Source: Lineus longissimus
Lineage: Eukaryota; Nemertea; Pilidiophora; Heteronemertea; Lineidae
Assembly: GCF_910592395.1 (NCBI RefSeq)
Contig: NC_088316.1
Location: forward strand, 10,724,001 to 10,788,000
Direction: 5' to 3'
DNA length: 64,000 nucleotides
The notes beneath the pieces are model-generated. The model did not search any database and was not told where the DNA came from. It was given only the letters and a program-made list of their open reading frames with translations. Positions 18,221 through 64,000 of this stretch are shown here, piece by piece (the first letter of the stretch is position 1; each line of letters opens with the position of its first letter). The position numbers and the translations under genes are program-made.

Positions 18221-20437
18221 ATGGACATTTTGGGTTACGAAATCCAGGATTGGGAATTCCAGATTCCGTTTGATCCGCAGAGAGCAGTAGCATCCAAGCA
18301 TCTGTCGCCGCAGTGGACAACTCTGGATGGGCGTGAACCTCGGCTTTCCACCCACCAATGCCCGGATTTTGAAAGCGTTATAAATGACGGTGTATGTTTT
18401 GATTTGAACGAGCTGCCACTACGAAACCCTGATCATTTTGTAGCAGGTCAAGTTCATCAAAATTTAGATCAATGGCGGGAAGTCATTGGCCATGTTTCTG
18501 ATACTTGTCCTGTTTCTAGCCAAGTATTATCATGGCTAACAGACGGTGTTAATGTGGATGATTTTTTCAGGCCATTTAAGGGCAACTTTAAAGGTGAATC
18601 GTTTGACTCGGATACCCCGCCTTCTCGATACTACCCGAATTCCAACAGTTGTCAGCAGTTTGGGGAGTTTATAGCCTCGGAGCTTCAGCAGCGTGTTAAA
18701 ACGGGGGCAATGGAATTAGTTGGTCGGGTGGGCGAGTGTCAATTACCATCCATCATCATGCCGCTTACTGTCGAGCCTACAAAACCACGGCTTTGCATAG
18801 ACAACCGATACTTAAATTTATGGATTAAGGATTCTCCGTTTCAATTGGAAACGCTTAAACATGTTTATAGGCTAGTTGATGAAAATGCGAGAATGGTCTC
18901 AACGGATGAGAAATCCGGGTATGATCATGTTCTCCTGTCCCCTTCCAGTTCATCTTACTTTGGCGTACAGTTTGGGGGTTGGGTTTTCCGCTGTAGATCT
19001 TTGCCGTTCGGGTGGAAGTCTTCCGCTTATATCTATCAAATGGTTGGGATGGTTGCAACAACGTATTTGCGCACATTTGGCATTCGCAATGCTCAGTATA
19101 TCGATGATAGATTAGCCGTAGAGGCAGTGTTCTCTACTTCTAGCGTAAAGCATCTTCCAATAGAGGTAATTGCTTATGCTTTGTTGCAGCTATTAACGAG
19201 ATTGGGTTACACATTTGCAATTCACAAGTGTAAGCTCGACTTTGGGACGTATCTCAAATATTTGGGGTTTATGGTTGATTCAGCTAGATTAGCTTATATT
19301 CTCCCGGACTATAAGAAAGTTAGCTTTGGGGCTTTGCGTGATTATATCCTGTCGTGCCAGCAGATCAATATCAAAACGTTGCAAAGATTTTCAGGCAAAT
19401 GTGTGTCAATGTTGTTGGCAGTTCCAGCAGCTGCTCTCTACACTAGAGAAGTAAATGCGGCAATATCAATGGGCCTAAAAAATAGTAGGGATGTTCAAGT
19501 TTCTGGCAAGTTACGCGCTGAAATAGAACATTGGAGATTTTTAGATTCGTGGGGTGGTTGTTTGAAGTGGCGTCGGGAGTCACATAAGCAGATTGTTCTC
19601 GCAACAGATGCATCGCTTTTCAAATACGGGGCGGTGGTCACAGGGGGTGAGCATGCGGGTTTGAGCTTTTCTGATTTCTAGGACAAGGATGATAAGCGGC
19701 CAATAATTTTAAAAGAAGCTGATGCTTTGTTAAAATCGTTGCAATCCATGCAGCCTGATTTGGTTGGCAAAAGAGTGGATATCTTGACGGATAATAAGCC
19801 GCTCATCTTTGCATGGAAAAACCAAGGTTCAAAATCTTCTCCTTTGAATGATTTGTTGAAGCTCATATTTCAATTCGTCTTTCAAAATAGTATAGATTTG
19901 AGGCTTTTCTATGTGCCATCTAAGCTCAACCCTGCAGATGCTCCATCTAGATCACTAAGTTCCGATGACATTACGCTCGCAGACGAGGTTTGGACCATTG
20001 TCCAAAAGGCATTTGGCCCGCACTCTGTTGATCTCATGGCGCTGGATTCCAACGCCATGTTGGATAATAATCGGTTGTCTCTGCGACATTTTACTCCTTC
20101 ACCTTCGCCATTTTCATCTGGCATCAATGTTTTTGCTCAGAATGTGGCAAAGGAGGGCAACCCGTACGTTTTTCCACCAGATAATCTTGTATTATCTCTT
20201 TTGTCGTTCTTAGCTCAGCAAACAGTGTCTGCTTTGACTATGATTGTTTTGTTAACGCCGGAGGCTTCCATTGCTTTGCCAATCCTCCGTGCATACTCTA
20301 TCTCTAAGATATGCTTGGGTCAAAAAGGTCAAAAAAGAGTTATTAAGATTCCTTCAAAGCTGGGATATAAGCTTGATGGTGATGGTTTAAAATACCCTTT
20401 AATTGCCTATAGGCTTTCTTTTAAAAAGGGTAATTAA
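18221..20437 (+). pseudogene. Reverse transcriptase-RNase H of the Ngaro-like element, one nonsense codon
   Basis: One frame from 18221 to 20437, broken only by TAG at 19679-19681. Its N-terminal region has LRNPDHFVAGQVHQNLDQWR. The RT core shows KPRLCIDNRYLN, STDEKSGYDHVLL (first Asp), CRSLPFGWKSSAYI and the catalytic YIDDRLAVE box, then HKCKLDFGTYLKYLGF. The RNase H part spans the stop: TDASLFKYGA before it, DILTDNKPLIFAW and LRLFYVPSKLNPADAPSR after. The tail with VDLMALDSNA and FSSGINVFAQN is the conserved C-terminal extension of DIRS-order pol proteins. The stop replaces a position that is Trp in related proteins as I remember them (SDF-W), consistent with TGG to TAG. A pyrimidine tract ending TTTTAG just upstream of 18218 may be a splice acceptor. 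Confidence 0.88.
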
Positions 20438-20445
20438 TTTTTCAG

Positions 20446-21663
20446 ATGGCGAGTCGGCGGCGTCTTTTGTCGGGCATCGATTTGCAGGGCATAAACAATC
20501 GTTTGGATATCTTGGATGAGCGACACTTGAACTCCGAAATGGTTAAAAGGAAAACAAGTGAGCAGCTTAGTTTGGAGCATTTTTTCTCATTGTTGCCTTT
20601 TCATGTCAATATTCAGTCTTGTACTCCTCAACATCTAAGGCGGTATTTGGTTTGGAGGGATGTGGATGGCAAAACAAAAGTTCATGATGTAAAGTGTCTG
20701 TTTTTGGGAGACAAATCGTTATCAACATGTCTTTGCCCGACAAGATTAGCCCATGGTACTCTTATAACCATTGTTCAAAGATTATCAAAAATATTTGAGG
20801 AAGAAGGCAGGGGGAAGGAATGGTGTACGAAATCGGAAACCGGAAATCCCGCAAAATCAAATGTCATAAAGCTGTACTTGAAGAAAATTTCGGAAGAGCA
20901 GGCTAAGGCCCAGATAGTTCCAAAACAGGCCAAGCCGTTATTTCTCTCTAAATTGGAGAAAATCTCTTCTTACATAGATAACCAGTTGTCTAGGCCAGAT
21001 ATCACTTTGCGTCAGCGTTTCGTTTTGTTTCGAGACCAGGCGTTCTTTAAGTTACAATTTTTTGCGGGTGACAGGGTTTCCGATTTATCGGGCGCTCCTA
21101 GTCAATCGGTTAGATATTTTGCTGATAACACTGGCATGGCTGTTTCGCATACATATACGAAAGTCATAAGAGGAGATGGGAGGTGTAACACCTTTGTTAT
21201 CAAGAGATGTGATAACGCGGCTCTATGCCCCGTAAGCGCACTGGAGCGCTACTCAGCTTGGGCCAAAAGCGCTGGGGTAGATCTTTCGCTAGGTTACCTC
21301 TTTAGGCTAGTAAGTGACTCGGGTAAGGTATTAGATCAATGTGTCTCATATGCAGTGATGTATTCCCGCTTGTTGGAGTATTTGACGACGCTCAATATCT
21401 ACGAGGGGGAGACACCTCATAGTCTCAGGTCGGGTTGTGCCATAACGTTGAAGTTGTCCGGGGCGGCTGACTCCAATTCCCAGACTATGAGGCATGTTGG
21501 TTGGTTCAAAGAATCTTCATGCAGTTATTACAGTCGTGAGGATTCTTTGAAAGAGCCGGCGCAGTTGGCTCAGAGGTTAGCTTCGTCACCAGCTTTGTCG
21601 GGAAAGATTGAATCTGATTACCAACGCTATGCAACATTTAACACTTTGAATCATGCAATCTAG
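20446..21663 (+). CDS. Tyrosine recombinase of the Ngaro-like element
   Basis: ATG at 20446, TAG at 21661-21663, 405 residues, uninterrupted. The catalytic set of a YR is visible: Arg in FFAGDRVSDL (about residue 210), His-x-x-Arg in TPHSLRSGCA (about residue 325), His in MRHVGWF and the nucleophile Tyr within CSYYSRE (about residue 362). The N-terminal half contains FSLLPFHVNIQSCTPQHLRR and KVHDVKC, a core-binding-like domain. It would join the circular cDNA to the target and explains the lack of target duplication. It starts 8 bp after the pol stop, in a different frame. Confidence 0.88.
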   Translation: MASRRRLLSGIDLQGINNRLDILDERHLNSEMVKRKTSEQLSLEHFFSLLPFHVNIQSCTPQHLRRYLVWRDVDGKTKVHDVKCLFLGDKSLSTCLCPTRLAHGTLITIVQRLSKIFEEEGRGKEWCTKSETGNPAKSNVIKLYLKKISEEQAKAQIVPKQAKPLFLSKLEKISSYIDNQLSRPDITLRQRFVLFRDQAFFKLQFFAGDRVSDLSGAPSQSVRYFADNTGMAVSHTYTKVIRGDGRCNTFVIKRCDNAALCPVSALERYSAWAKSAGVDLSLGYLFRLVSDSGKVLDQCVSYAVMYSRLLEYLTTLNIYEGETPHSLRSGCAITLKLSGAADSNSQTMRHVGWFKESSCSYYSREDSLKEPAQLAQRLASSPALSGKIESDYQRYATFNTLNHAI

Positions 21664-48697: not shown

Positions 48698-49477
48698 ATG
48701 GCCCCAAAATTCCATCTACCTGAGGCATTTGTCGCCATTCTGGCCAGCCCTCTGGCCTAGAAAAGTCAAAGATTCCTCAGATATCGTGTCACAACTGCAC
48801 TGGATGCGGAAACGGAGGCTGTACAGACCAATACATTGCTGTACGCAATGGGCCAGCAAGCAGATACTGTGTACAACACGTTTGTGTTCGCCCCTGTCAG
48901 AGATGTTGAACATCCTGAACTCGTTTTTAACACTGTCCTGGAGAAGTTTAACAACCATTTCGTTCCACGTCGCAATGTTATTCATGAGAGGGCTCGCTTT
49001 TACCAAAGGGAACAGAAGCAGGGCGAAAACATTGAAGAATTTGTTCGAAATCTGTACGAACTCTCGCAGCACTGTGATTTCGGTGGAAATCATAATGAAC
49101 ATATCCGAGACAAGCTGGTTGTTGGTCTTCAGGATAAAGAACTATCTAGAGATTTGCAACTTAAAGCTGACCAGACATTAGATCAGGCAGTCCAGCTGTC
49201 TAGGGAACGTGAAATGGTGAAAAGCCAGGTTACATCACAACACGGGAAAGGTGAGGAACCATCAGTTAGTGCTGTTAACGCTCGTCTCCGAGGCCGCCAA
49301 CCCCGTCCACGCAACGCAGATCGCCCAAAAAGGGATCACCAAAACAAAAGACTTCGTCAGCAAAAAGTACCCAACCCCATCCTAAGCAAAACTCCAACCC
49401 CCAAACTTGGAACGAAAAGTGAGGGCGGTGTGGTGGGTCACATGGCCCTACGTCACGCTGTCCAGCAACTGGCGTGA
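48698..49477 (+). pseudogene. Gypsy gag, nonsense at codon 21
   Basis: ATG 48698 starts MAPKFHLPEAF, the usual opening of this gag type, and meets TAG at 48758-48760. The same frame then runs uninterrupted to TGA 49475-49477: SQRFLRYRVTTALDAETEAV, then NTVLEKFNNHFVPRRNV and ERARFYQREQKQGENIEEF, the conserved capsid C-terminal block, then a basic tail. Related gags have Trp at or near the stop position, so TGG to TAG is the simplest reading. The next ORF overlaps its end by 4 nt in another frame. Confidence 0.8.
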
Positions 49478-51069: not shown

Positions 51070-51607
51070 AAAATTCTCACAGTATCTGTATGGACTACAC
51101 ACTTTCAAAATATTGACAGATCATTAACCCTTAGTACCATTGATGAATGATAGAGACTTGGACAAAGTTCCAATTTGTTGCCAGAAATTACTCATGCGCC
51201 TTATGAGATTCAATGCCAAAGTTGAGCATGTGCCAGGAAAGACATTAGTTATCGCCGACGCGTTGTCTCGGAGTCCTTTGTCCGTGGACCCCGTTGACAA
51301 GACTATATTTGAAATCCAAGCTGCCATTGACGCCTATGTCGAATCGGTCGAAAACAGCAGGAATGTGTCTTTGAATAAACTTGAGGAAATAAGGTCAGTT
51401 AGCGCAAGGGATCAAACTTTCGCGGATGCCATGAAATTCACGCTCAGTGGCTGGCCAGACAGAGCCAGCGACGTCCCTATGCATCTCAGAAACTTCTATG
51501 GTGTGAGAAATCATCTCTCTGTTGCCAATAATCTCTTGCTGTACGATAATAGGATCGCCATTCCCGCCGAATTTAATACAGCAGGAAATTCTAGCTCGAA
51601 TCCATGA
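51020..51607 (+). pseudogene. Gypsy RNase H end and linker
   Basis: In the frame that continues from the indel near 51020, [19 protein letters not shown] is followed by two TAA codons (about 51020-51025 and 51125-51127). Then the RNase H end FNAKVEHVPGKTLVIADALS and a linker run to 51607. The frame shifts again at about 51575 where the integrase begins. Confidence 0.75.
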
Positions 51608-52706
51608 CGGTCACATGGGTGTGACTAAGTCCAGAGAAAGGGCAAAATCGTGTGTCTTGTGGCCTGGTCTTAGCAATGACATTCAGAACGTTGTAGAAAA
51701 ATGCTCATTTTGCCAGGAACATCGCCCTAAGCAAAATAGGGAACCACTGATTACAACCCCCATGCCATCCCAGCCATGGGACAGGATCGGAGCAGATTTG
51801 TTCACAATGGTATCATTCAACCATGACTCCTATCTTGCCATGATGGACTATTTTTTGAGATACATCGAAATTGCCCACCTTGGGAAAACCACCACTAGCA
51901 AAGTCGTCATCGGCAAAGTCAAAGCCATATTTGCCCGCTGGGGTATACCAATAACTGTGGTTACGGACAATGGTCCTCAGTTTTCATCTGTCGATTTTGC
52001 TGCTTTTGCTAATGACTATGGTTTTGAACACATCACATCCAGCCCCACCTATGCTCAATCCAATGGTGAGGCTGAGGCCGCGGTAAAAATCGCAAAGAGA
52101 ATTCTAAAACAACTCGATCCGTACAAAGCTCTACTAGCCTATCGGGCTACACCCATTGCTGCGACCGGGTTTAGCCCAGTCGAAATGTTAATGGGGCGCC
52201 AACTCAGAACAACCCTTCCTGTTCTCCCAAGGAATACCGATCCAGAATTCAGTTTTTATGGTCAAGCTCGAGAAAACGACGAAAGTGCAAAAACTCATCA
52301 GGAAATGTACTACAATCGCAAGCATGGAGTACGTCCTCTTCCGAACATTGCCCCTGGTAATGTTGTCCGAGTCAAAACTGATCAGGAAAAATCATGGAAA
52401 ACGTCTGCTACTGTTATCGACAAACATCCGTCTACCCCTCTTTCCTTTATCGTTCAGACCGATTCAGGATCAACTCTCAGGAGAAATCAACGACATCTGC
52501 AATCTGTACCGGTACCCAATCCGGGTGTACCGTCATCGCCTTGTCGAAATTTGTCAGAAGTGCCGCCATCTTCTCCATGTCGAAATCCGTTGACAATGAC
52601 TCCCGTTGCTGAAAATAACCCTAGTGCCCCTGTTCCACCCGCAGGAACAGTGATTTCAACTTGCGCGGGTCGTGTAGTCAAACCCGTTCAAAAACTCAAC
52701 CTCTAG
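51522..52706 (+). CDS. Gypsy integrase
   Basis: One open frame to TAG 52704-52706. HHCC zinc-binding region (IHDGHMGVTKSRERAKSCVL...CSFCQEH) and the DDE core: GADLF (Asp), VVTDNGPQFSS (Asp) and SNGEAEAAVK (Glu), spaced as in retroviral-type integrases. The C-terminal region has VLMGRQLR-like sequence (VEMLMGRQLRTTLP) and NVVRVKTDQEKSW, and ends with a Pro/Ser-rich tail. The upstream start is within the linker; no independent ATG is needed in a polyprotein. This is the only uninterrupted enzyme domain of the element. Confidence 0.88.
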   Translation: MPIISCCTIIGSPFPPNLIQQEILARIHDGHMGVTKSRERAKSCVLWPGLSNDIQNVVEKCSFCQEHRPKQNREPLITTPMPSQPWDRIGADLFTMVSFNHDSYLAMMDYFLRYIEIAHLGKTTTSKVVIGKVKAIFARWGIPITVVTDNGPQFSSVDFAAFANDYGFEHITSSPTYAQSNGEAEAAVKIAKRILKQLDPYKALLAYRATPIAATGFSPVEMLMGRQLRTTLPVLPRNTDPEFSFYGQARENDESAKTHQEMYYNRKHGVRPLPNIAPGNVVRVKTDQEKSWKTSATVIDKHPSTPLSFIVQTDSGSTLRRNQRHLQSVPVPNPGVPSSPCRNLSEVPPSSPCRNPLTMTPVAENNPSAPVPPAGTVISTCAGRVVKPVQKLNL

Positions 52707-54864: not shown

Positions 54865-55036
54865 TACTCTAGATTCACTTTTCTACGGTCAGTGGTAAAT
54901 ATTAATTTCTTACCTTCAGCATTGTCTTCTTCTTCTATATGAATTCATTTTTTTCCGAGGCGCCGATGTATAGCATAATTTTGCAAGGCAAGAAATTAAT
55001 ATTTGCAACTGACCTTAGAAAAGTGAATCTCGAGTA
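54865..55036. mobile_element. 172-bp foldback MITE
   Basis: TACTCTAGATTCACTTTTCT at the left and AGAAAAGTGAATCTCGAGTA at the right are inverted repeats of about 50 bp, continuing through GGTCAGT and AATATTAATTTCTT. No coding capacity. Confidence 0.85.
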
Positions 55037-55101
55037 TTATTATTATTATTTTTAATTTTATTATTATTTGTGTACATGAATGTCGTTTTCATATGCCTAT
55101 C

Positions 55102-55231
55102 AGAATATATGTATTGCGATGGTAGGAACTAGGTTATGCTTTAGGCCCTTTTGACCAAAGACCTTACAGGTCTTTTGCCCCAAATAAGCCTACAACCCCA
55201 AAGAACCAATCCATCGCAATACATATATTCT
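55102..55231. repeat. Inverted repeat with perfect 21-bp arms
   Basis: Arms 55102-55122 and 55211-55231 are exact reverse complements (core TATGTATTGCGATGG). The loop contains a smaller inversion, AAAGACCT/AGGTCTTTT. Probably a small MITE. Confidence 0.8.
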
Positions 55232-55593
55232 ATCATTCATGAGATTCCCAGTGAAGCGTTGCAATGAAATGGTCAATGAAATGGTGAGGGAATACTAGAG
55301 CTCAATGGGTTAATGTAATCATGACTTACTGTATTCCAACAGAAAGTACACGTCAATAGCTTTCCAAGGATACATCATTGCAAATATCCGTTAAAAAATA
55401 TCAGAGAAATGAACCCTTGAAGTTCGCACATCTTGACAGTCCCAGCGTATTCCAATAAATGCTGTAGGCCTACACGACAGCTGTTACAGTGATTAATCAT
55501 TGTTGCTTGAATCTATTGAAAATATTGTTGACAGAGTCTGCATGTACATGGTAACATATGTTACCAAACAATACTCACGTCCCAAAGTATTAC

Positions 55594-55730
55594 AAAGGTC
55601 TATTGTTCGTTAATGCGTTTATCCGACAGAATTTAGAGAAATTATTTTAACGACGCAAAAATAATTTTCAGCGCTGAAAATATTTTCGAAAATTCTGTCG
55701 GATAAACGCATTAAGACACAATAGGCCTTT
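55594..55730. repeat. 137-bp palindromic element
   Basis: The left arm includes TAATGCGTTTATCCGACAGA and the right arm is its reverse complement; outer parts match with a few differences (AAAGGTCTATTGT against AAAGGCCTATTGT). The centre is AT-rich and contains CAGCGCTG. Could form a long hairpin. Confidence 0.85.
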
Positions 55731-55748
55731 TCATGTCTTTGACAAGCA

Positions 55749-55838
55749 AAATAATTAATGACTGCAACATCTGATATGGCCATTGTAATTTGCAAGCACA
55801 AATAATTAATGACTGCAACATCTGATATGGCCATTGTA
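55749..55838 (+). repeat. Short tandem duplication, ~51-bp period
   Basis: AATAATTAATGACTGCAACA followed by TCTGATATGGCCATTGTA occurs at 55749 and 55800. Lies 160 bp upstream of the first Polinton-like gene. Confidence 0.85.
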
Positions 55839-56001
55839 CAACTGAATATCACTATGGTTTAAAGGCAAATGTTATTCTGTCCATGGAGACATGATGTTAA
55901 CGTCACACTTTCTCCATCTGGTGAGATTATTCCATTAAAATAAATGGCCTTTTTACTGTCTTCATTAACCAAAATTCAAGGAAAAAATTCAAGTAAATTA
56001 A

Positions 56002-57392
56002 ATGTATTATCAAATAGCAAATCAACATAAAAGTAAATTCACCTATGACTTCTTTAATTTAGAAGTAACTGTTAATACTAATAACTTCTTCCGCCTACAA
56101 GAAACTAAGATAACACCTGGGTTTTTGAGCCTGAAAAATAAGAAAGACTGTCTGCGACTGGCAAAGAATCCATTATCGTTTTACCAGAACCAATTTAACA
56201 TGGCTGTTTGGTTTGCTACAACAGGTTGTGGTATTTCAATAGACGATCACTTGAATCACAGTGACCCATTGATAAGGTCAATTTACAGGTTTCATGTTTA
56301 CTATCAAATATTGAAGATCATGAAGAATCTAGAGATACCAATTCCAGGTGAAAGTGATTTTAATGAGACAAACAATAACATTAACCGTAGGAAACTAGGA
56401 GGGTTATTGAGTGAATTTGGTTTAAAAGACGAGTACGATTTCTCGGTGTTTGAAAATAACGGTGGTTGGAGGTCATGGAGTGTACCGGATTACAACCCGA
56501 ACATAACTGATCCCGGATATTACATCAATGATTCTAAAATCAATTTCTTCCTCATGCAAGTTCATGAAAATAGAATGCCACCGATGTTCAGTAAAGACTG
56601 GGATGCTGGAATGGCTAATTTCAAATATCCAGATATTTTCATCAAGGATCATGTCAGGAGACACAAGAATGTATTTGATGTAATTACACAAAATGAATGT
56701 CAAACCTATCAACAATTCATGATATTTAATCAAATGGTTTCTCTAATCCTGGAATAGAGAGGTTGAATGATACAATAAGAACATATGTTTACTGTATTCT
56801 GGGTGCTCAGGCATTGACCAGAACACCAATAATTGGAGTACCGGGTACAGAATTGGATGCACAGAAGGAATTTAACAAACTATTAAAGGACTCGATTAAT
56901 CAACATCCTGATATTCCCACTTCAATTCAAAGATACCAAAAAGCAGTGAGTGACACTCATACAAGACTAGATTATGTAATAGCACCAGGATTGTATGTCA
57001 TAGGATCAAATATGGTACTCGTTATTGGTAAGCTGGATAACTACAATAATAACATTTTAATAGCACCAAAAAATGCCAAACCCGGTAAGAATGACATTAA
57101 CCACAAAAAGACCTTACCACCACCACTGATGGAAGGAAATAGTTCTAAGAAAATAAGAGTTAAGAGTAGCGTTGGTACTGTCAAGACGGACTTCGTCCTG
57201 AGAGCAAAGCTCGAGACCAGTCATAAACCAAAGAGTAATGTTGATACACCAAAAACAACTGAAACCTCAAAGAATACTCCTACTACTACTAAACTTGACA
57301 CCAAAGTTGAGAAGGTGGATGATACTCATGAAACAATTAAATTCATGCTTTACTCAGTTGTTGGTACATTGATTGTTTTTATGGTTAGATAA
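56002..57392 (+). pseudogene. Polinton-like gene A: probable virion structural protein, one frameshift
   Basis: ATG 56002 opens 251 codons to TAG 56755-56757. The next frame carries on from about 56742 (GIERLNDTIRTYVYCILG) to TAA 57390-57392, so a single 1-2 nt indel near 56740 splits one ~460-residue protein. Landmarks: FFRLQETKITPGFLSLKNKK, SFYQNQFNMAVWFATTGCGI, IYRFHVYYQILKIM, TRTPIIGVPGTELDAQKEF, ITLDYVIAPG-like (RLDYVIAPGLYVIGSNMVL). The C-terminus is Lys/Thr-rich with a hydrophobic last segment (FMLYSVVGTLIVFMV). Similar proteins accompany pPolB elements in cnidarians and echinoderms (from memory). A structural role is inference. A double-hairpin module sits at 57188-57212 inside it. 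Confidence 0.6.
57188..57212 (-). repeat. Double-hairpin module 1 (single)
   Basis: GGAC-TTC-GTCC, spacer TGA, GAGC-AAA-GCTC: two perfect 4-bp stems with 3-nt loops. In frame it reads DFVLRAKLE within gene A; the TGA is out of frame. Confidence 0.9.
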
Positions 57393-57402
57393 ATAAGTAA
57401 TT

Positions 57403-59040
57403 ATGGCTGAAGGAGGTGAAAATTATGAAATGAGTGAATACTATCCACATTACAATCCTGATTACGATCCTGATTACGATCCTGATTACAAACCTGAGGA
57501 TTATGTTGATATCTTTGATATTAATAAAAAGTTTAAAGATGATCGCGCAAGATACAACACAGGAGGTGAAGATTATGCTGATATCTTTGGTTTTAATAAA
57601 AAGCCTCGAGATTATGACACAAAATACAACACAGGAGGTGAAAATCTTACTGATGAAACTTCATTCACTAAAACTCCAGAAAGGCCAGGCACAACATACA
57701 ACACAGGAGGTGAAAATCTTACTGATGAAACTTCATTAAGTATACCAGAAAGGCCAAGAGGTATTGTCCCTGAATTGATGGAAAAGGAGTCATTTCTAGA
57801 TGATAAAGAGGATAAACTTGATACAGCATTGAAAAAAAGTGGTAAATGGAAATATGACCCGAACAAACTAAGTAAACTAGCAACACGTATTTATTTGCAC
57901 AACGAGGAACCTTACTTCTTGCCTACAAAAGGAGAATTAGCAAACTTTACAGAACAACAAAAGAACAATATGAATAAAATTCCTAATCCTAATGGAGGGA
58001 ATGCCTTTATCATTCCTTTAATTAAATCAGATGGTAAATTCCTTTCTGAAGGCACATTAAAGACTAAGTTTGGTACTAGATTTGCTAACATGATTAGAGG
58101 TATGATTGCACCTGGCCCACCAGTAAGGGAACCTACATTAGTAACCCCTGAAACACAGGCAGTAATTAATGAGGTAAACAGTTCAAACAAACCAATAGAT
58201 AAACTGATAGATGCTACTGATGATGAACTTAAATCACTGGGTTTTACTGAATATGCCTTGAGAGAATTTAGAGGGTTAAAACAGGCTGGTGATGATCTAG
58301 CTGCAGTAAAGAGGGATAAGGACATGCAAATAGAAAGCCTAGAAGAAGAACTTAATAATTTAACAAGAGACTATGTAAAGTCTGTAGAAGAAGATACTAA
58401 AGATAAAGGAGAGTTGAAAAAGCAAATAGATGAACTAAATGACAAATTGTATGAGGAACAGTCAAAGGTATGGAGGTTAGACAATGACAGGGAGTCACAA
58501 ACTAGAAGAATGAAACGTTTAATTGTTGATGTTCTAAAGAAACCAGATTCAACTATTCCTCTGAAGGATAGAATAAAGTTACTTTTTAAGACATATGGTG
58601 TAACCATTAGCGCCATAATAACAGCTGTTGTAATGACATTTACAACTCTAGGTCTTAGTATCAGTAGTGCTTTAAGTGGTGCCACTAAATCTGTAAAACC
58701 AACTCCAGGACCAGGACCATCTCCAGGACCAGACCCAACTCCAGGACCTACACCAGAACCAGGACCAAAACCATCAATACCAGATAAAGTAAAAAAAGGT
58801 CTCAAGAAGTTTGCTGAATGGCTAAAAGAACTAGCCAAGAAATCAGCTGCGGCTTTACCGGGAATCATCGGTTCTATCGTATCATTTCTCCTGAAAACAA
58901 TTGGTGCAGTTGTTGGCTTTCTAGCTGAACATCTGATCATAGCAGTTATTGCTATTGTTAGTTCCATAATTTATGGTTTAATTGGGGGTGTTAAAGCCTT
59001 AAAATCACGTAAAACAGTAAAATCACGTAAAAGGTCTTAG
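57403..59040 (+). CDS. Polinton-like gene B: coiled coil and membrane-segment protein
   Basis: ATG 57403 to TAG 59038-59040, 545 residues, starting 10 bp after gene A. The N-terminus has short tandem repeats (DPDYDPDYDPDY, then three YNTGGE units). The middle contains KLATRIYLHNEEPYF and IRGMIAPGPPVREPTLV. A coiled coil follows at about residues 300-370 (IESLEEELNNL, LKKQIDELNDKLYEEQSKV). Then a hydrophobic segment (ISAIITAVVMTFTTLGLSIS), a Pro/Gly linker (PGPGPSPGPDPTPGPTPEPG), an amphipathic helix, and two more hydrophobic segments (ALPGIIGSIVSFLLKTIGAV, LIIAVIAIVSSIIYGLIGG) with a basic tail. This suggests a membrane-active virion protein or minor structural protein; function not known. 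Confidence 0.7.
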   Translation: MAEGGENYEMSEYYPHYNPDYDPDYDPDYKPEDYVDIFDINKKFKDDRARYNTGGEDYADIFGFNKKPRDYDTKYNTGGENLTDETSFTKTPERPGTTYNTGGENLTDETSLSIPERPRGIVPELMEKESFLDDKEDKLDTALKKSGKWKYDPNKLSKLATRIYLHNEEPYFLPTKGELANFTEQQKNNMNKIPNPNGGNAFIIPLIKSDGKFLSEGTLKTKFGTRFANMIRGMIAPGPPVREPTLVTPETQAVINEVNSSNKPIDKLIDATDDELKSLGFTEYALREFRGLKQAGDDLAAVKRDKDMQIESLEEELNNLTRDYVKSVEEDTKDKGELKKQIDELNDKLYEEQSKVWRLDNDRESQTRRMKRLIVDVLKKPDSTIPLKDRIKLLFKTYGVTISAIITAVVMTFTTLGLSISSALSGATKSVKPTPGPGPSPGPDPTPGPTPEPGPKPSIPDKVKKGLKKFAEWLKELAKKSAAALPGIIGSIVSFLLKTIGAVVGFLAEHLIIAVIAIVSSIIYGLIGGVKALKSRKTVKSRKRS

Positions 59041-59087
59041 GTGACCTTCTATCAAAACAATGTTTAAAAAATAATTATTATGTAAAT

Positions 59088-60227
59088 ATGAATAAATACA
59101 TCTCATTAAAAGACTATTATTCTAGTGAGTGGAACAATGAGAATCTTAAAGGATACATTCGTCCTAGGGTTATGGATCGAGCAGAGCTCTCAGGACGAAG
59201 TCCGACTAGGACAAAGTCCAGAGAGCAAAGCTCGACTCGAGCAGAGCTCTCAGGACGAAGTCTGACTGAGACAGGCAAAGTAGTCCTGCCAAGAATGAAA
59301 GAATATGACGTCAGTACCAACACTAATGCTCAATTCTGCCGTAATTGTAAAAGGTGGACACTTTTTGAGTATCAAAAAAACTTGAATTCAGCAAGGTACG
59401 CAGCTAAAACTGTGAAGTATCAATTCTGCACCAATTGCAATTCGACTACTTACGACGATGATTTTAAAACTCTTGAGATCAATATTGACAACAAGACACG
59501 TTACTTTGACAGTATTCTAAGGAAACTTGGATGGAGTCGGCTGTCCGAATCGGCAGTGAAGTATTTAAAGGACTTTGTGGAAGGGTATTTACAGTGCTAC
59601 TTTTCAAGTCACAGAAAATGTCTTAGTAAGCAGAGATATGAAAGTACTCTTCAGTCAGCCCTAAAAATGGGTATTAACACTCTCCCCTCTAAGTTATGTA
59701 ACCAAGGGTTACATGGTGAAGCCATGCTTTTTAAATTTCACTGTGGGGAATATGATTGGTTTCTTGCCATTGAATTTATTAACAGGGCAATTGGTAAACC
59801 GCAATTAACCGATGAGAATATCACTGACCTTAGACTAGTGTACTATGCTTTCCTTAGATTTCTGCATTACTGTGGTGTGAAGGTCACCATTAACTACAAG
59901 GTATTTTTACACCAAGCCTTTAAAACGCTGAAAATTGATTATGTAATATTTACACCTTTTTTAACCAACAAGGAGCGAGTAAATGATTTGGAGAGATTAT
60001 GGTATGATTTCACTCAAAGTATTTTCTTCCAGAATTACAAGGTTGAGAAGGAATATGACCAGGATATTGACAAGCAGTTTGACGTTTTACTGAGTGCCAG
60101 TGCAGGTCGAGACATTAACTGCATCAGTAGTATTAAGTTTACACCAGCCGGACTTCGTCCTGAGAGCATAGCTCAAGCCAGACTTCGTCCTGAGAGCATA
60201 GCTCGAGCTAGTGTTAAGATGCAATAA
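59088..60227 (+). CDS. Polinton-like gene C: Cys-rich protein with hairpin-derived segments
   Basis: ATG 59088 to TAA 60225-60227, 379 residues. FCRNCKRWTLFEYQ and YQFCTNCNSTTYDDDF form two C-x-x-C pairs, a probable zinc ribbon. The middle is a helical domain (YLKDFVEGYLQCYFSSHRKC, CNQGLHGEAMLFKFHCGEYD, FLRFLHYCGVKVTINYKVFL). Residues about 30-60 and the last ~30 residues are encoded by double-hairpin modules, giving RAELSGRSPTRTKSREQSS near the start and LRPESIAQARLRPESIARA near the end. Those segments are low-complexity insertions and not part of a domain. Function unknown; perhaps a replication or packaging accessory. Confidence 0.65.
   Translation: MNKYISLKDYYSSEWNNENLKGYIRPRVMDRAELSGRSPTRTKSREQSSTRAELSGRSLTETGKVVLPRMKEYDVSTNTNAQFCRNCKRWTLFEYQKNLNSARYAAKTVKYQFCTNCNSTTYDDDFKTLEINIDNKTRYFDSILRKLGWSRLSESAVKYLKDFVEGYLQCYFSSHRKCLSKQRYESTLQSALKMGINTLPSKLCNQGLHGEAMLFKFHCGEYDWFLAIEFINRAIGKPQLTDENITDLRLVYYAFLRFLHYCGVKVTINYKVFLHQAFKTLKIDYVIFTPFLTNKERVNDLERLWYDFTQSIFFQNYKVEKEYDQDIDKQFDVLLSASAGRDINCISSIKFTPAGLRPESIAQARLRPESIARASVKMQ
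59179..59263 (+). repeat. Double-hairpin array 2 (six hairpins)
   Basis: In order: GAGC/GCTC, TCA, GGAC/GTCC, GACTA, GGAC/GTCC, AGA, GAGC/GCTC, GACTC, GAGC/GCTC, TCA, GGAC/GTCT. Only the last stem has a mismatch. Entirely open in the frame of gene C. Confidence 0.92.
60150..60204 (-). repeat. Double-hairpin array 3 (two tandem modules)
   Basis: Two copies with a 30-nt period of GGAC-TTC-GTCC, TGA, GAGC-ATA-GCTC. The second has AGAC in place of GGAC. They form the C-terminal end of gene C; TGA spacers are out of frame. Confidence 0.9.
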
Positions 60228-60278
60228 AGTTGTGAAAACAGCATTTTGCACTTAACAGTCATTTTTCCATAATTTTAA

Positions 60279-61100
60279 ATGAATAATCAGCAAATGAATA
60301 GTCCGACATTTGCAGTGATTGAACAACAGATGAAACAGATTGGTGTTATGAGTCCTGAGAGCTTAGCTCGAGTTGGGGCTTCTAACCAACAGAACACTGG
60401 TAGTTACCAACAAAACAGAACTAACTTTCAACAGAACTGCTCTACAAATCGACAAGTTTCAAACAAGCAGTTGAATAGTTCAAATTTTGTTACTCCCAGT
60501 CAGGGAATAGTTAATCCCAGTCAAGGAATAGTCAATTCTAGTTGCCAACTAGGATCAACCAGCAATCAACAAAATTTGAACTATTTGACTGATAGTGGTC
60601 TTAAAGCCAAACAAGACTTAGAGATTCTAGTTGCAACTGGTAAAAGCAAGGATTTCCTTAATAAACAAATAACTTTTAATGACTTAGATAATATGACTGA
60701 AAAAGAAATCTTAAAACACCATAGAATGTATGAAACAAAGATGGCTGCCAGACTTAATGATTCTTTGGGTAAGACAGTAATTAAAGCTTACACTAAATTA
60801 TCAAGGTGGTTATTACCAATAGATGATGAAGATGATCTTTATCATGATCTTAGAAATGATTATTTGATAACTAACGAGTTGGATAAATGGCTTGGATGGT
60901 TGAGTTTGAGAATGGGTCCATTAACTGCACTTGCTTCAACAACACTTATTACTTTAGGTCATTGTCATGAGGAATCATCTATGAATACATCGAGTATGAC
61001 TGCATCAAATATGAATACACCAAATATGACTGTCTCTGAATGTGACAAACCAATAGATGAAAGTCTAGATATCACAGGTAGTGATGATAAAGAAGACTAA
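60279..61100 (+). CDS. Polinton-like gene D: Asn/Gln-rich protein
   Basis: ATG 60279 to TAA 61098-61100, 273 residues. The first ~110 residues are Gln/Asn/Ser-rich with a small duplicated IVNPSQGIVN motif. The second half is folded-looking: LTDSGLKAKQDLEILVATGK, TFNDLDNMTEKEILKHHRMY, DLRNDYLITNELDKWLGWLS, and a hydrophobic MGPLTALASTTLITLGHC. The tail has MNT/SMTASNMNTPNM repeats. A partial hairpin module lies at 60352-60369. No family assigned with confidence. Confidence 0.6.
   Translation: MNNQQMNSPTFAVIEQQMKQIGVMSPESLARVGASNQQNTGSYQQNRTNFQQNCSTNRQVSNKQLNSSNFVTPSQGIVNPSQGIVNSSCQLGSTSNQQNLNYLTDSGLKAKQDLEILVATGKSKDFLNKQITFNDLDNMTEKEILKHHRMYETKMAARLNDSLGKTVIKAYTKLSRWLLPIDDEDDLYHDLRNDYLITNELDKWLGWLSLRMGPLTALASTTLITLGHCHEESSMNTSSMTASNMNTPNMTVSECDKPIDESLDITGSDDKED
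60352..60369 (-). repeat. Double-hairpin module 4 (partial)
   Basis: GTCC, TGA, GAGC-TTA-GCTC: one full hairpin plus the inner strand of the other, whose outer strand is lost. Reads SPESLARV in gene D; TGA out of frame. Confidence 0.8.
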
Positions 61101-61179
61101 ATTAACCTGGTTATGAGAACATAGTTCGAATTAATTTGAGCAAGATAAATGGAACTTGAAACTGTAACTGATACTACTC

Positions 61180-61234
61180 GAGCTATGCTCTCAGGACAAA
61201 GTCCGACTAGGACTACGTCCAGAGAACAAAGTTT
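61180..61234 (+). repeat. Double-hairpin array 5 (four hairpins, 55 nt)
   Basis: GAGC-TAT-GCTC, TCA, GGAC-AAA-GTCC, GACTA, GGAC-TAC-GTCC, AGA, GAAC-AAA-GTTT. The last stem has GAAC/GTT, a paired change from GAGC/GCT, with one mismatch. Confidence 0.9.
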
Positions 61235-61561
61235 CAGTGTCTAAGAAACCTCGATCAGAGAAACAATTAGCATGGTCTAGAGAACTGGGTAGAAGATCTA
61301 AGGAATTTAAGAGAATAAAAAACGATAAGACGACATTTAAAGTACAGGACTCCTCACCAAAAAACAGAGTTGTGGAAAAGGAGGAAGAAGAAGTAGAGGA
61401 AGAAGAACCACAATCTCAAAATACTGATGTATCACTGCGTGAATCTAGTAGTAATACTTATGTCTATGTACTAGGTTTAGGTGCCGTTATTTTAGCAGCA
61501 TTCATTATGTTTAAGAAACTTCCTAAAAAAGTAAGTAAAGAGCAGCGATCAGGCTTGAATC

Positions 61562-61616
61562 GAGCTATGCTCTCAGGACAAAGTCCTAATCGAACTTTGT
61601 TCTCTGGACAAAGTCC
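61562..61616 (+). repeat. Double-hairpin array 6 (four hairpins, 55 nt)
   Basis: GAGC-TAT-GCTC, TCA, GGAC-AAA-GTCC, TAATC, GAAC-TTT-GTTC, TCT, GGAC-AAA-GTCC. All stems pair, including the compensated GAAC/GTTC. In frame in gene E (RAMLSGQSPNRTLFSGQS). Confidence 0.92.
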
Positions 61617-61684
61617 GAATGAAGCAGTCATGAAGGGATCAATTAACCCTCTTGTTAAACCTGTAGTTAAAGAGAAGAAATGTA

Positions 61685-62698
61685 CTATTCCTTTAATGGA
61701 ATGATCTCATCAGGTGGTCGAGCTTTGCTCTCAGGACGAAGTCCGTCTAGGACAAAGGCCAGAGAGCAAAGCTCGATTCTTAACTCTAAAGAAACCTCTG
61801 TTCCTCTGAAATTAACTAGCTTACCATTCTCATCAGTGATTTCGAATTTTATGTGATTAGTACACTTATTTATCGTTTTCTTACAATTCGGTTCGTATCG
61901 CTGCATTTTTATTTGGTCACCATCTTCTACAGGTATGATGCAGAAAATGTTAGATGGTTTATTGTTGTAGAGGGTCTTAGCTTTGTCAACCAAATTAGCT
62001 TGCAGGAATAGATATTTCCTGTAAAAGTTGAGTGGTCTTGTGGAGTAGTATTTTCCTTTCTTGGTGAATTTAGTTTGCTTAAAGCCAAACCACTCATTCA
62101 CCACTGTGAGCTGTTTTTCTATCACCTCTCTTATGGTTTTGCTTATTTGAAAACCTTCTGTGTTTCTCTCAATCTTGATTTTTTCATTTTTATCTAACTT
62201 GTCTACTTTCAGAGGGTACTCTTTATCCTCTGTAAGTTCAAGGGTTATGTAATTATTGTTATCACAGTAAATTTTCACATGGCTAATTCCAATTTCTTTT
62301 ATGTATTTTTGCCATACCTCACAAAACTCACTTAAACTAAAATGTTGAGAGTATGGAAATGTGTATTGAGTAATGGTGTCTTTAGTTGTGGTAGATTCAT
62401 TTTCCAAATGCCGTTCGCAAATTTTCATGACTTCCTTTTCAAGTGTATCTGTTTCAAGTCCAGGAGCAAATAATGTCCTACACCATAATTGTTTATCTAA
62501 GGGCTCATGTGTTGTAAATCTGGTTATTTCGACTAGAAATGAGAAAATCCTGACTCCCTCTGGTAGAAAATCACCTGTCCACCATGAATTGTAAAAGGTT
62601 ATCGATTTCAAAGTAATGGATTTTATGTCTAATTGGGCTGTTAAGTAGTACTCAAATTTGGCTTCATTACATTCTTGTTCATTGATTATGAAGTCCAT
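61685..62698 (-). CDS. Polinton-like gene F: unknown protein on the minus strand
   Basis: ATG at 62698 down to TAG at 61687-61685, 337 residues. Landmarks: LTLKSITFYNSWW-like start (ITLKSITFYNSWWTGDFL), RIFSFLVEITRFT, YSQHFSLSEFCEVWQKYIKE, NNYITLELTEDKEYPL, NEWFGFKQTKFTKKGKYY, KYLFLQANLVDKAKTLYNN. It is beta-rich and resembles, in layout only, minor capsid or fibre-like proteins of pPolB elements. It is convergent with gene E (20-bp overlap) and divergent from the polymerase. The last ~30 residues come from a four-hairpin array. Confidence 0.6.
   Translation of the reverse strand: MDFIINEQECNEAKFEYYLTAQLDIKSITLKSITFYNSWWTGDFLPEGVRIFSFLVEITRFTTHEPLDKQLWCRTLFAPGLETDTLEKEVMKICERHLENESTTTKDTITQYTFPYSQHFSLSEFCEVWQKYIKEIGISHVKIYCDNNNYITLELTEDKEYPLKVDKLDKNEKIKIERNTEGFQISKTIREVIEKQLTVVNEWFGFKQTKFTKKGKYYSTRPLNFYRKYLFLQANLVDKAKTLYNNKPSNIFCIIPVEDGDQIKMQRYEPNCKKTINKCTNHIKFEITDENGKLVNFRGTEVSLELRIELCSLAFVLDGLRPESKARPPDEIIPLKE
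61720..61774 (+). repeat. Double-hairpin array 7 (four hairpins, 55 nt)
   Basis: GAGC-TTT-GCTC, TCA, GGAC-GAA-GTCC, GTCTA, GGAC-AAA-GGCC, AGA, GAGC-AAA-GCTC. One stem has a mismatch (GGAC/GGCC). Read on the minus strand as the C-terminus of gene F without a stop. Confidence 0.92.
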
Positions 62699-62754
62699 TT
62701 CTATTTAATTCAAGAGATTTATTGAATTTAATAAATTTTAATCTAATAAATAGA
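62699..62754. promoter_or_regulatory. 56-bp divergent intergenic region
   Basis: Separates the starts of gene F (minus) and the polymerase gene (plus). It is almost pure A/T with ATTTAATTCAAGAG and TTTAATAAATTTTAATC, so a bidirectional promoter is likely by position. Confidence 0.45.
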
Positions 62755-64000
62755 ATGACTGATAAGAATCAGAAAATACTTTGCACTACATGTGACAAGT
62801 ACATATCCTACAATAATATGGCTATTCACAGGAGAACCAAAGGTCACTTAAGTAAATTAAATCCGGATTATGTCCCTATTGCTCAACCCCGAGCCCCATC
62901 ACTGATCCCTAAAACTATGGATAAGAAACTTGCATTTGAGGAAAATGAGCTAGATGGCATAAAGAAAGTGAGTGGAATAGAAATAGTAAAACAATTTGGA
63001 AAGCCTGTAATCACCATTAGTTTGAAGATTGACAGAGAAGCTAAACAGGTGTATGAATACAGAGATAAATTAGAGGAGGTATTATTTCAACTCAATGATT
63101 ACCATCACAAAATTAGCATATCAGTATTTGCTCAGTTTGATCGTCAGGGTGAAAGTGTAACACACCCCATACAGTCTCCAATGGAAAGCATAATTTCAAG
63201 GAACCAGGCAATTTATGCCATAACCAACCAGTTAAACTACATTAAGACACAGATTGAGGAAAGGTACTTTCAAGGTTCTGGACTTACTTTAAATAAAATA
63301 GAGTCTTGTAACATGACCATCTGTTCTTACAAGAGGTGTAAAGGTGGTCATTACACTAAATTACCATTTAAAACAAAAGCAGTAATAAATGTGGAATCAA
63401 ATGACAATAAATGTTTTCTCTGGTCTTTATTGGCCGCTAAATATCTGAAAGAAAATCCAGAGACGTACTTTGTCCTGAGAGCAGAGCTCGAGAGTACATT
63501 AAATATTACTACCGATATGCTAGAAATGACTTCGTCACGAGAACAGAGTTCGAAAACTACTGATATCAAAATCAAATCATTTCCTGTATGTATTCAAAAG
63601 GATATTCCTAAGATAGAGAGTGATAATAATCTCAAGATTAATGTGTTCAAGTTAGAGAACGAATGGGCTAAGAGCACCTGTGAGGCAAAAGTAGAACCTC
63701 TCTACCTGTCCAAGAATTATGATGATGATGATGTCATCGATCTGTTGTATTTCAAGGACCATTTCATGTACATAAGAGACATCAATCTTTTCTTCAGGAC
63801 ACTAGCTCATAGAGTGTATCTTTGCAGGAGATGCATGAATTACTTTTACAGGAAGTCAACACTAGATAAGCATAAAAAGAAATGTGGAGAACACGATTAC
63901 TGTAAGATTACTTTGCCTCCACCTAACAGTAAATGGTCACAAATTAAATTTGAAAAACACTCATTCAAAAATAGAGTTCCGTTTGTGATCTATGCTGATT
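62755..64000 (+). CDS. Protein-primed type B DNA polymerase, N-terminal part
   Basis: ATG 62755, open for 415 codons to the window end. A C2H2-like finger at the start (CTTCDKYISYNNMAIH), a helical region, SNDNKCFLWSLLAAKY (about residue 215), DLLYFKDHFMYIRDINLFF, a second finger (YLCRRCMNYFYRKSTLDKHK), then VPFVIYADF at the very end, which is the exonuclease I motif region of DNA polymerase B family 2. That N-terminal layout is the one found in pPolB genes of Polinton-like elements in invertebrates. Polymerase palm motifs lie outside the window. Two double-hairpin modules are inside it. It would replicate the element, primed by a terminal protein. Confidence 0.82.
   Translation, partial: MTDKNQKILCTTCDKYISYNNMAIHRRTKGHLSKLNPDYVPIAQPRAPSLIPKTMDKKLAFEENELDGIKKVSGIEIVKQFGKPVITISLKIDREAKQVYEYRDKLEEVLFQLNDYHHKISISVFAQFDRQGESVTHPIQSPMESIISRNQAIYAITNQLNYIKTQIEERYFQGSGLTLNKIESCNMTICSYKRCKGGHYTKLPFKTKAVINVESNDNKCFLWSLLAAKYLKENPETYFVLRAELESTLNITTDMLEMTSSREQSSKTTDIKIKSFPVCIQKDIPKIESDNNLKINVFKLENEWAKSTCEAKVEPLYLSKNYDDDDVIDLLYFKDHFMYIRDINLFFRTLAHRVYLCRRCMNYFYRKSTLDKHKKKCGEHDYCKITLPPPNSKWSQIKFEKHSFKNRVPFVIYAD
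63465..63489 (-). repeat. Double-hairpin module 8
   Basis: GTAC-TTT-GTCC (one mismatch), TGA, GAGC-AGA-GCTC. In frame YFVLRAELE in the polymerase, the same frame as module 1; TGA out of frame. Confidence 0.88.
63527..63551 (-). repeat. Double-hairpin module 9, fully compensated
   Basis: TGAC-TTC-GTCA, CGA, GAAC-AGA-GTTC. Both stems differ from consensus, yet both still pair. Read in the third frame (MTSSREQSSK), where a TGA spacer would be a stop; here it is CGA. Confidence 0.88.

Follow-up and report, generated by a model that had tools for sequence, protein, structure and literature searches.

Double-hairpin modules with short target duplications in the genes of Lineus longissimus Polintons: a probable ultra-short mobile element

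The stretch of DNA analysed here, referred to as the window, comprises 64,000 nucleotides from the nemertean Lineus longissimus (contig NC_088316.1, here C9, positions 10724001-10788000). Its right-hand part is occupied by a Polinton, the genes of which contain repeated copies of a short palindromic module made of two adjacent hairpins. A preliminary description of these modules had proposed a hairpin element that is mobile or spreads by itself and is tolerated within coding sequence. This idea is supported both by the differences in occupancy among Polinton copies and by the confinement to Polintons. We consider it probable, at about 0.8, that each module is a copy of a very short, non-autonomous mobile element living as a parasite of the Polintons of L. 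longissimus. The genome searched comprises 391 Mb in 30 contigs, and 391 Mb is also the size given for the published assembly (PMC8593623).

The carrier Polinton measures ~18.9 kb and extends from position 55102 to ~73990 in window numbering, with its right end at ~C9:10797990. Its terminal inverted repeats (TIRs) of 172 bp are 100% identical and are bordered on both sides by the 6-bp target duplication CCTATC, and in stretch L027, which is the same Polinton copy, we found the domains DNA_pol_B_2 (pPolB), rve plus Chromo integrase and a Pox_A32-type ATPase. The element thus combines the structural features of a Polinton, TIRs with a target duplication of 5-6 bp, with its coding features, pPolB, rve integrase and a packaging ATPase. 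A 419-aa open reading frame (ORF) of the carrier, which by eye looks capsid-like, contains no modules at up to six mismatches.

The pattern GAGC-N3-GCTC-N3-GGAC-N3-GTCC with at most two mismatches gave 12 matches in the window, all within 57188-63489, and 0 in 100 dinucleotide shuffles. Using a slightly stricter pattern with up to five mismatches, we recovered the modules at all nine places where they had been reported, including two degenerate modules at 60345-60369 (given as 60352 in that description) and 63527-63551, and + and - cores confirm that they occur in both orientations. The preceding DNA is indeed devoid of them, with 0 matches to the 27-nt form in window 1-55100 at up to six mismatches. 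A structural scan that was not based on sequence (two perfect stems of 4 bp with loops of 3 nt and a spacer of 3 nt) yielded 10 matches in 55901-64000 and 0 in the remaining 55.9 kb of the window (1-55900); among 36 loop/spacer geometries this one was the richest in the Polinton part, the runner-up having 5 matches. The scan added a module at 61103-61127, absent from the preliminary description, with stems TAAC/GTTA and GAAC/GTTC. At up to six mismatches, 15 modules of the carrier copy lie within the window and 11 beyond it, and no module in window 55000-64000 had an Rfam match up to E = 1.

Some parts of the earlier account have to be amended. The pair of hairpins stands, but the actual unit is not 25 nt but 27 nt plus 3 nt. 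Modules had been placed in six of seven genes or their ends; six is correct if ORFs or their stop-to-stop frames are counted, but the total is eight main non-nested ORFs (56002-63999), with no modules in those at 56002-56757 and 57403-59040. Likewise, nearly all copies had been described as read through as protein, but the module at 61209 is truncated in a gene whose frame is shifted by eye, and in a census of 220 modules from 17 stretches (leaving out L014, L019, L020 and L021) 166 fall within ORFs of 140 aa or more, with every one of the six combinations of strand and phase represented, and 54 lie outside.

The nature of the unit emerges from the comparison of Polinton copies, for which we used 20 stretches (19 from contig C1, one from C9) and 16 short stretches (nine sibling copies on eight contigs). 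Identical flanks carry zero, one or several modules depending on the copy. When 21 Polinton stretches were each compared with all the others, we found 475 distinct indels of 12 nt or more. Their lengths peak at exactly 30 nt, with 134 indels of which 112 contain a module. Longer indels with modules fall on the same ladder (30/30 at 60 nt, 5/5 at 90 nt and 7/7 at 120-210 nt), and multiples of 30 nt account for 154 of the 204 distinct module-bearing indels. The 22 thirty-nucleotide indels without a module by our threshold include one site with a divergent member (stem GACC/GGTC, duplication ATC) and another with a hairpin pair of different stems; by eye, most of the others look like coding tandem repeats. 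Cut-and-paste footprints were expected as 27-nt differences and were rejected, as there are only 4 module-bearing indels of 27 nt versus 112 of 30 nt; by eye, two of the four are alignment shifts and two are a single integrase site.

We then considered the 16 sites with a clean empty allele and flanks free of module-like sequence, one of which adjoins another module on inspection. Across every readable stretch, 173 of 182 readings give either the length of the empty form or that length plus a multiple of 30 nt, three readings being counted twice where the window and L027 represent one copy. All 16 sites are filled in some copies and cleanly empty in others, so that the modules do not occupy identical positions in all related elements. 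In the commonest filled form the trinucleotides flanking the module are identical at 11 sites, with 1/64 expected per site, and ACT/ACT is the most frequent flank pair (40 of 179 distinct contexts). Outside this strict list, reading by eye shows perfect duplications at s1 and s6 and one that is off by one base at s7 (Table 1). The module is therefore a double hairpin of 27 nt that is found at NNT, often ACT, usually with a 3-bp duplication, and adds 30 nt to its target. Note that the left trinucleotide ends in T at 16/16 sites, so that a 28-nt element (T plus core) with a 2-bp duplication reads equally well. At one target (ACC or AAC) the left copy is AAT and the right one remains ACC, which favours a T supplied by the element.

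Targets are used recurrently, and repeated use of one target has produced mixed arrays. At s6, where two sequence types meet, the copies are empty (L025, L026) or carry A alone, B alone, A-B or B-A. The site s1 has a single core, read as DFVLRAKLE in the ORF 56763-57392. The uniform array s3 has 0 units in L026, and 19 further copies or stretches show 1, 2, 3, 4 or 7 of them. At s2 the other copies have two insertion points separated by a 60-nt segment that is missing from the window copy, and the first of these points is empty in L012, L016, L025 and L026. The site s5 has 0 units in 7 copies, 1 in 8 and 2 in L017 and L040; the second module of the window is 11 nt shorter than in the latter two, and by eye the frame of the gene is shifted. 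Copies that are ~98% identical in the neighbouring gene 3 still differ here, with s5 empty in L039, L041 and L042 and filled in L043, L044 and L045. At s7, judged by length and by eye, L026 has no module and the remaining copies read have two to four. Seven copies are filled at s8, with L025 and L026 empty, and s9 has no empty form among the copies read. One insertion is present in 1 copy and absent from 8, and two further sites are each filled in three copies.

Seven aligned pPolB relatives lack the stretch that holds s8 and s9. A screen of 130 relatives (10 pPolB proteins and the 120 integrases listed of 3,243 matches) found the full module peptide in a single one, the L. longissimus integrase P0026, with 0/130 in reversed controls; degenerate modules would escape this screen, which thus covers a sample. 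P0026 matches contig C16 of the genome at 100% over 380 aa. As seen by eye, other integrase lineages (L019:2380-2470, L049:80-125) have different hairpin arrays in the same linker, including single GAGC-ATA-GCTC hairpins every 15 nt, and one hairpin may thus be able to expand alone.

Taking the window and stretches L009-L028 together, the stem types are GAGC/GGAC (106), GAAC/GGAC (25), GAAC/TGAC (11), AGAC/GAGC (11), GAAC/TAAC (8) and rarer others, and the module ends share by eye only TCG...CGA. In 28 modules selected by hand to span this diversity, some of them from the structural scan, the stems covary: 97.3% of the stem pair cells are paired, compared with 87.4% in shuffles, both sides differ in 22 cells versus 5.9 in shuffles, and 5 of 8 pairs are compensated. 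In 159 variant cores that were not chosen by hand, some of them chance matches with 7-8 mismatches, Watson-Crick pairs make up 75% of the stem cells versus 17-34% when the register is slid; a change on one side is seen in 262 cells, and in 87 both sides have changed with pairing kept. Several sequence types with compensated stems thus coexist. The usage of loops and spacers depends on the reading frame: the spacer TCA occurs in 0 of 27 modules in the combination where it would read as the stop TGA and in 119 of 139 in the other five, and the loop TAT in 0 of 22 modules where it would read TAG, a result that is partly circular since only modules within open frames were counted. The informative part is that suitable spacer and loop variants exist and fill the stop-prone frames.

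A genome-wide search with GAGC-N3-GCTC-TCN-GGAC-N3-GTCC returned 1,920 matches, 958 forward and 962 reverse, and 0 for the reversed control; two samples were located, one of 100 matches on C1 and a genome-wide one of 71 with a second variant. The 100 places at the head of the list belong to C1 and lie in fetched stretches with Polinton sequence (96) or within 0.7 kb of one (4), with L019 being classed as Polinton through its integrase fragment. For the second variant, the 71 places are distributed over 18 contigs, and 44 have a scored Polinton gene at a distance of up to 19 kb, an assignment by proximity only, with such zones making up 1.2% of the genome. Among the other 27, 22 fall into 20 fetched stretches, each of which matches Polinton DNA once the modules are masked, and 5 were not fetched, two of these being ~2.5 kb from a fetched stretch. 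In both samples together 48 places are assigned by proximity, and with the 5 unchecked ones set aside no module was traced to non-Polinton DNA. A host-wide repeat is therefore not supported, and an equal density throughout the genome, which the preliminary description had named as evidence against its proposal, was not seen, the modules checked being in or near Polinton DNA. In IMG/VR the pattern was found in 0 contigs, and no relative was confirmed there by scans for the integrase and pPolB; in a set with one genome per prokaryote species there was 1 match, in a Kutzneria record, that we take as chance.

Table 1. Module sites of the window, followed by other features (window coordinates unless a stretch or contig is named)
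Feature	Position	Strand	Remarks
s1, 27-nt core	57187..57213	-	duplication TCT (AGA on + strand); empty in L026
s2, core 1 of three-core array (+,-,+)	59178..59204	+	flanks GAT/ACT, imperfect duplication
s2, core 2, type B (TCT spacer, terminal T)	59208..59234	-	
s2, core 3	59238..59264	+	
s3, array core	60149..60175	-	duplication GCT
s3, array core	60179..60205	-	
s4, degenerate core	60344..60370	-	L026: full module at same place, duplication ACT
Extra module between two genes	61102..61128	-	stems GAAC/GTTC and TAAC/GTTA
s5, core type A	61179..61205	+	duplication ACT
s5, core 2, type B	61209..61235	-	truncated in window copy, frame shifted
s6, core type A	61561..61587	+	duplication AAT
s6, core type B (GAAC/GTTC)	61591..61617	+	duplication AAT
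s7, core in 3' end of minus-strand ORF 61685-62698	61719..61745	+	
s7, second core	61749..61775	-	
s8, core in pPolB	63464..63490	-	duplication TCT
s9, type C core in pPolB	63526..63552	-	stems GAAC/GTTC and TGAC/GTCA
Polinton, left part	55102..64000	+	TIRs, target duplication, gene content
Nested Polinton	L014:4409 to L012:8250 (~C1:13004409-13023250)		ends read in L046, L047
Upstream ORFs without modules	503-2539, 18221-19681, 20446-21663, 48836-49477, 51522-52706		

Several further observations concern the carrier and its surroundings. Near the left end of the Polinton, window 55612-55714 contains an inverted repeat that matches mir-9261 below threshold (31.6 bits against a gathering cutoff of 86). 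Within 56002-57392, two neighbouring ORFs that differ in frame adjoin at ~56760 and may represent one gene interrupted in this copy. For the 379-aa protein at 59088-60227 no homologues were found at E 0.001. Upstream of the Polinton there are ORFs with RVT_1, an ORF with an ALOG domain, and retroelement ORFs of the gag-like and rve integrase types, all without modules. Elsewhere, one Polinton is nested within a gene of another Polinton copy and has the 6-bp duplication ATTATG. Among the database relatives, P0011, recorded as a protein of Bartonella sp. CL29QHWL, shares 94% identity with the Polinton integrase across 88% of the latter; it may be a contamination or come from a very close relative in another animal, and its partial sequence starts just past the module site of the integrase. 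P0001, a pPolB fragment recorded under a metagenome-assembled genome of Candidatus Omnitrophica, is 46% identical to the Polinton pPolB and is perhaps mis-binned eukaryotic DNA.

The confinement to Polintons suggests that the modules spread during Polinton replication. Single strands, on which hairpins can form, would be expected to arise in protein-primed synthesis, and copying would take place while Polinton DNA replicates, with some nuclease, recombinase or template switch as the possible copying step. Uniform arrays such as s3 would afterwards grow and shrink through local duplication, and variants whose loop or spacer gives an in-frame stop would be removed. That the element is tolerated in genes would be explained by its length, as 27+3 nt preserve the reading frame. 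The Polinton integrase is disfavoured as the inserter since two Polinton insertions have 6-bp duplications. A mobilisation by the host, with the modules as a family resembling miniature inverted-repeat transposable elements (MITEs) and a host transposase for which Polintons are incidental targets, would account for the short target duplication, the two orientations and the sequence types, and a duplication of fixed length (perfect at 11/16 sites, imperfect at 5) is indeed a MITE feature. However, the TIRs of ~10 bp or more that are typical of MITEs are absent, as the common part of the ends is limited to three bases on either side, and a host transposase should also hit other DNA, where no module was traced; we consider this origin unlikely and insertion on replicating Polinton DNA probable. 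The notion that the modules are functional cis-signals of the Polinton (for packaging, transcript ends or as enhancers), maintained by selection and not by their own spread, agrees with the compensated stems and with the hairpin-directed mRNA ends of giant viruses (PMC5413956), but neither their presence nor their number is constant between copies ~98% alike, no constant number or spacing is seen across copies at the 16 sites, and three quarters of the census modules (166/220) lie within ORFs, in both orientations, making such a function similarly improbable. The uniform tandem array at s3, with its 1-7 units in filled copies, is what ordinary minisatellites would look like, but one and the same 30-nt unit at many unrelated sites and in both orientations is not, and ancestral protein parts are at odds with the empty alleles at most sites, the lack of the stretch in seven pPolB relatives and the near absence of the module peptide from the relatives screened; we regard minisatellites and ancestral parts alike as very improbable, and the latter as not supported.

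The alternative closest to the favoured explanation is that the Polinton polymerase switches templates between hairpins at microhomologies and thereby copies the 30-nt unit, so that no dedicated enzyme is needed and the duplication is the microhomology itself. We regard this as possible but somewhat doubtful, and it overlaps with the mobile-element explanation, the copying step of which stays open. The absence of copies traced outside Polintons, the prevalence of ACT/ACT and the donor-like ACT on one side of the imperfect pairs GAT/ACT and AAT/ACT fit with template copying, but the duplicated trinucleotides track the target at varied sites (TCT, GCT, AAT, AGT, ACT) and distinct sequence types reappear at distant sites. 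We rank a hairpin element processed by a nuclease or recombinase during replication first and template switching by the polymerase second; the two modes overlap, both would be coupled to replication, and the imperfect flanks are the best handle on the choice between them. In its most complete form, the mobile-element explanation describes a hyperparasite of 27 nt that would copy only during Polinton replication, would be locked to the codon by its 27+3 architecture and hence colonise the genes of a compact virus-like genome, would diversify by compensated stem changes and frame-matched changes of loop and spacer, and would, to our knowledge, be among the smallest mobile elements with a target duplication. 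This complete version is tentative, at a little under even odds.

A number of results weigh against the mobile-element explanation. DNA folding does not support the two-hairpin form, as 3 of 5 inputs were no better than shuffles and the remaining two beat the shuffles but took other pairings, and the number of further pair types, one of five covariation measures, is not above that of shuffles, 84 of 500 of which reach the value. Fifty of the 204 module-bearing indels are not multiples of 30, although many look like alignment shifts, 9 of the 182 site readings are off the 30-nt ladder, and at one integrase site L022 is set apart from L014/L027 by a clean difference of 27 nt. The flanking trinucleotides differ at 5 of the 16 sites (GAT/ACT, AAT/ACT, AAT/ACC and twice, in the same way, TGT/GGT), which would not be expected from a plain staggered cut. 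The polarity of insertion is clear at few sites, and gene conversion between copies or loss by hairpin slippage between the 3-bp repeats could explain some of the empty alleles. Finally, we know of no mobilising enzyme or longer autonomous relative, and no search for such a partner was made.

The modules work like the mitochondrial double-hairpin elements, the yeast GC clusters and the Rickettsia palindromic elements, but lack a defining feature of each. The GC clusters of yeast mitochondria, exemplified by GC42, are likewise short, palindromic and optional between strains, have direct-repeat flanks AG or ACT, merge into larger clusters and have stems that are less variable than their loops, but they are 42 nt long, mitochondrial and mostly intergenic, whereas the modules are 27 nt long, nuclear and mostly in Polinton genes; the likeness of their flanks to the ACT/AGT of the modules is a resemblance and not a test (PMC4478555). 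The double-hairpin elements of Allomyces and the hairpin elements of sponge mitochondria are also scattered and spread within one genome, but they reside in organelle DNA, and the Allomyces elements have no flanking duplications, in contrast to the usual 3 bp in Lineus (PMC2800124). Adjacent hairpins and optional insertion are thus shared with these mitochondrial elements, and residence in an organelle, chiefly between genes, is not, the modules being on contigs of 13-29 Mb and mostly inside ORFs. With the Rickettsia palindromic elements the modules share the in-frame insertion into unrelated coding sequences, but the former are ~150 bp long and bacterial (PMC10969869), and neither a length of ~100-150 bp nor a rickettsial genome applies here. 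The Submariner MITEs of Pandoravirus salinus are small, non-autonomous and proliferate in a viral genome, with 10 of 30 in coding regions, but are of the Tc1/mariner type with a TA duplication in place of hairpins and NNT (PMC4495683). PARCEL coding repeats are translated DNA repeats with dyad symmetry as well, but form a tandem amphipathic motif of 25 residues, whereas the modules are ten codons long, encode no fixed peptide and occur in all strand and phase combinations (PMC2996958). The hallmarks of repetitive extragenic palindromic (REP) sequences are a GTAG-type head and a REP-associated tyrosine transposase (RAYT); by eye GTAG is absent from the module ends, and no search for a RAYT gene was made. 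By title and abstract, searches of the open-licence literature in PubMed Central yielded no description of such elements in Polintons.

Ultra-short palindromic invaders are known from organelles and bacteria, and their mode of movement is not settled, as in the case of the yeast GC clusters (PMC4478555). Here such a family is present in a chromosome-level animal genome together with many sibling carriers, empty sites and intermediates, and the insertion rule, an NNT target with a 3-bp duplication, can therefore be read directly. The ten-codon inserts hit, among others, the integrase and the DNA polymerase of the Polinton, and if the proposed explanation is true, they would be a clear case of a mobile element that parasitises a Polinton inside its coding sequence.

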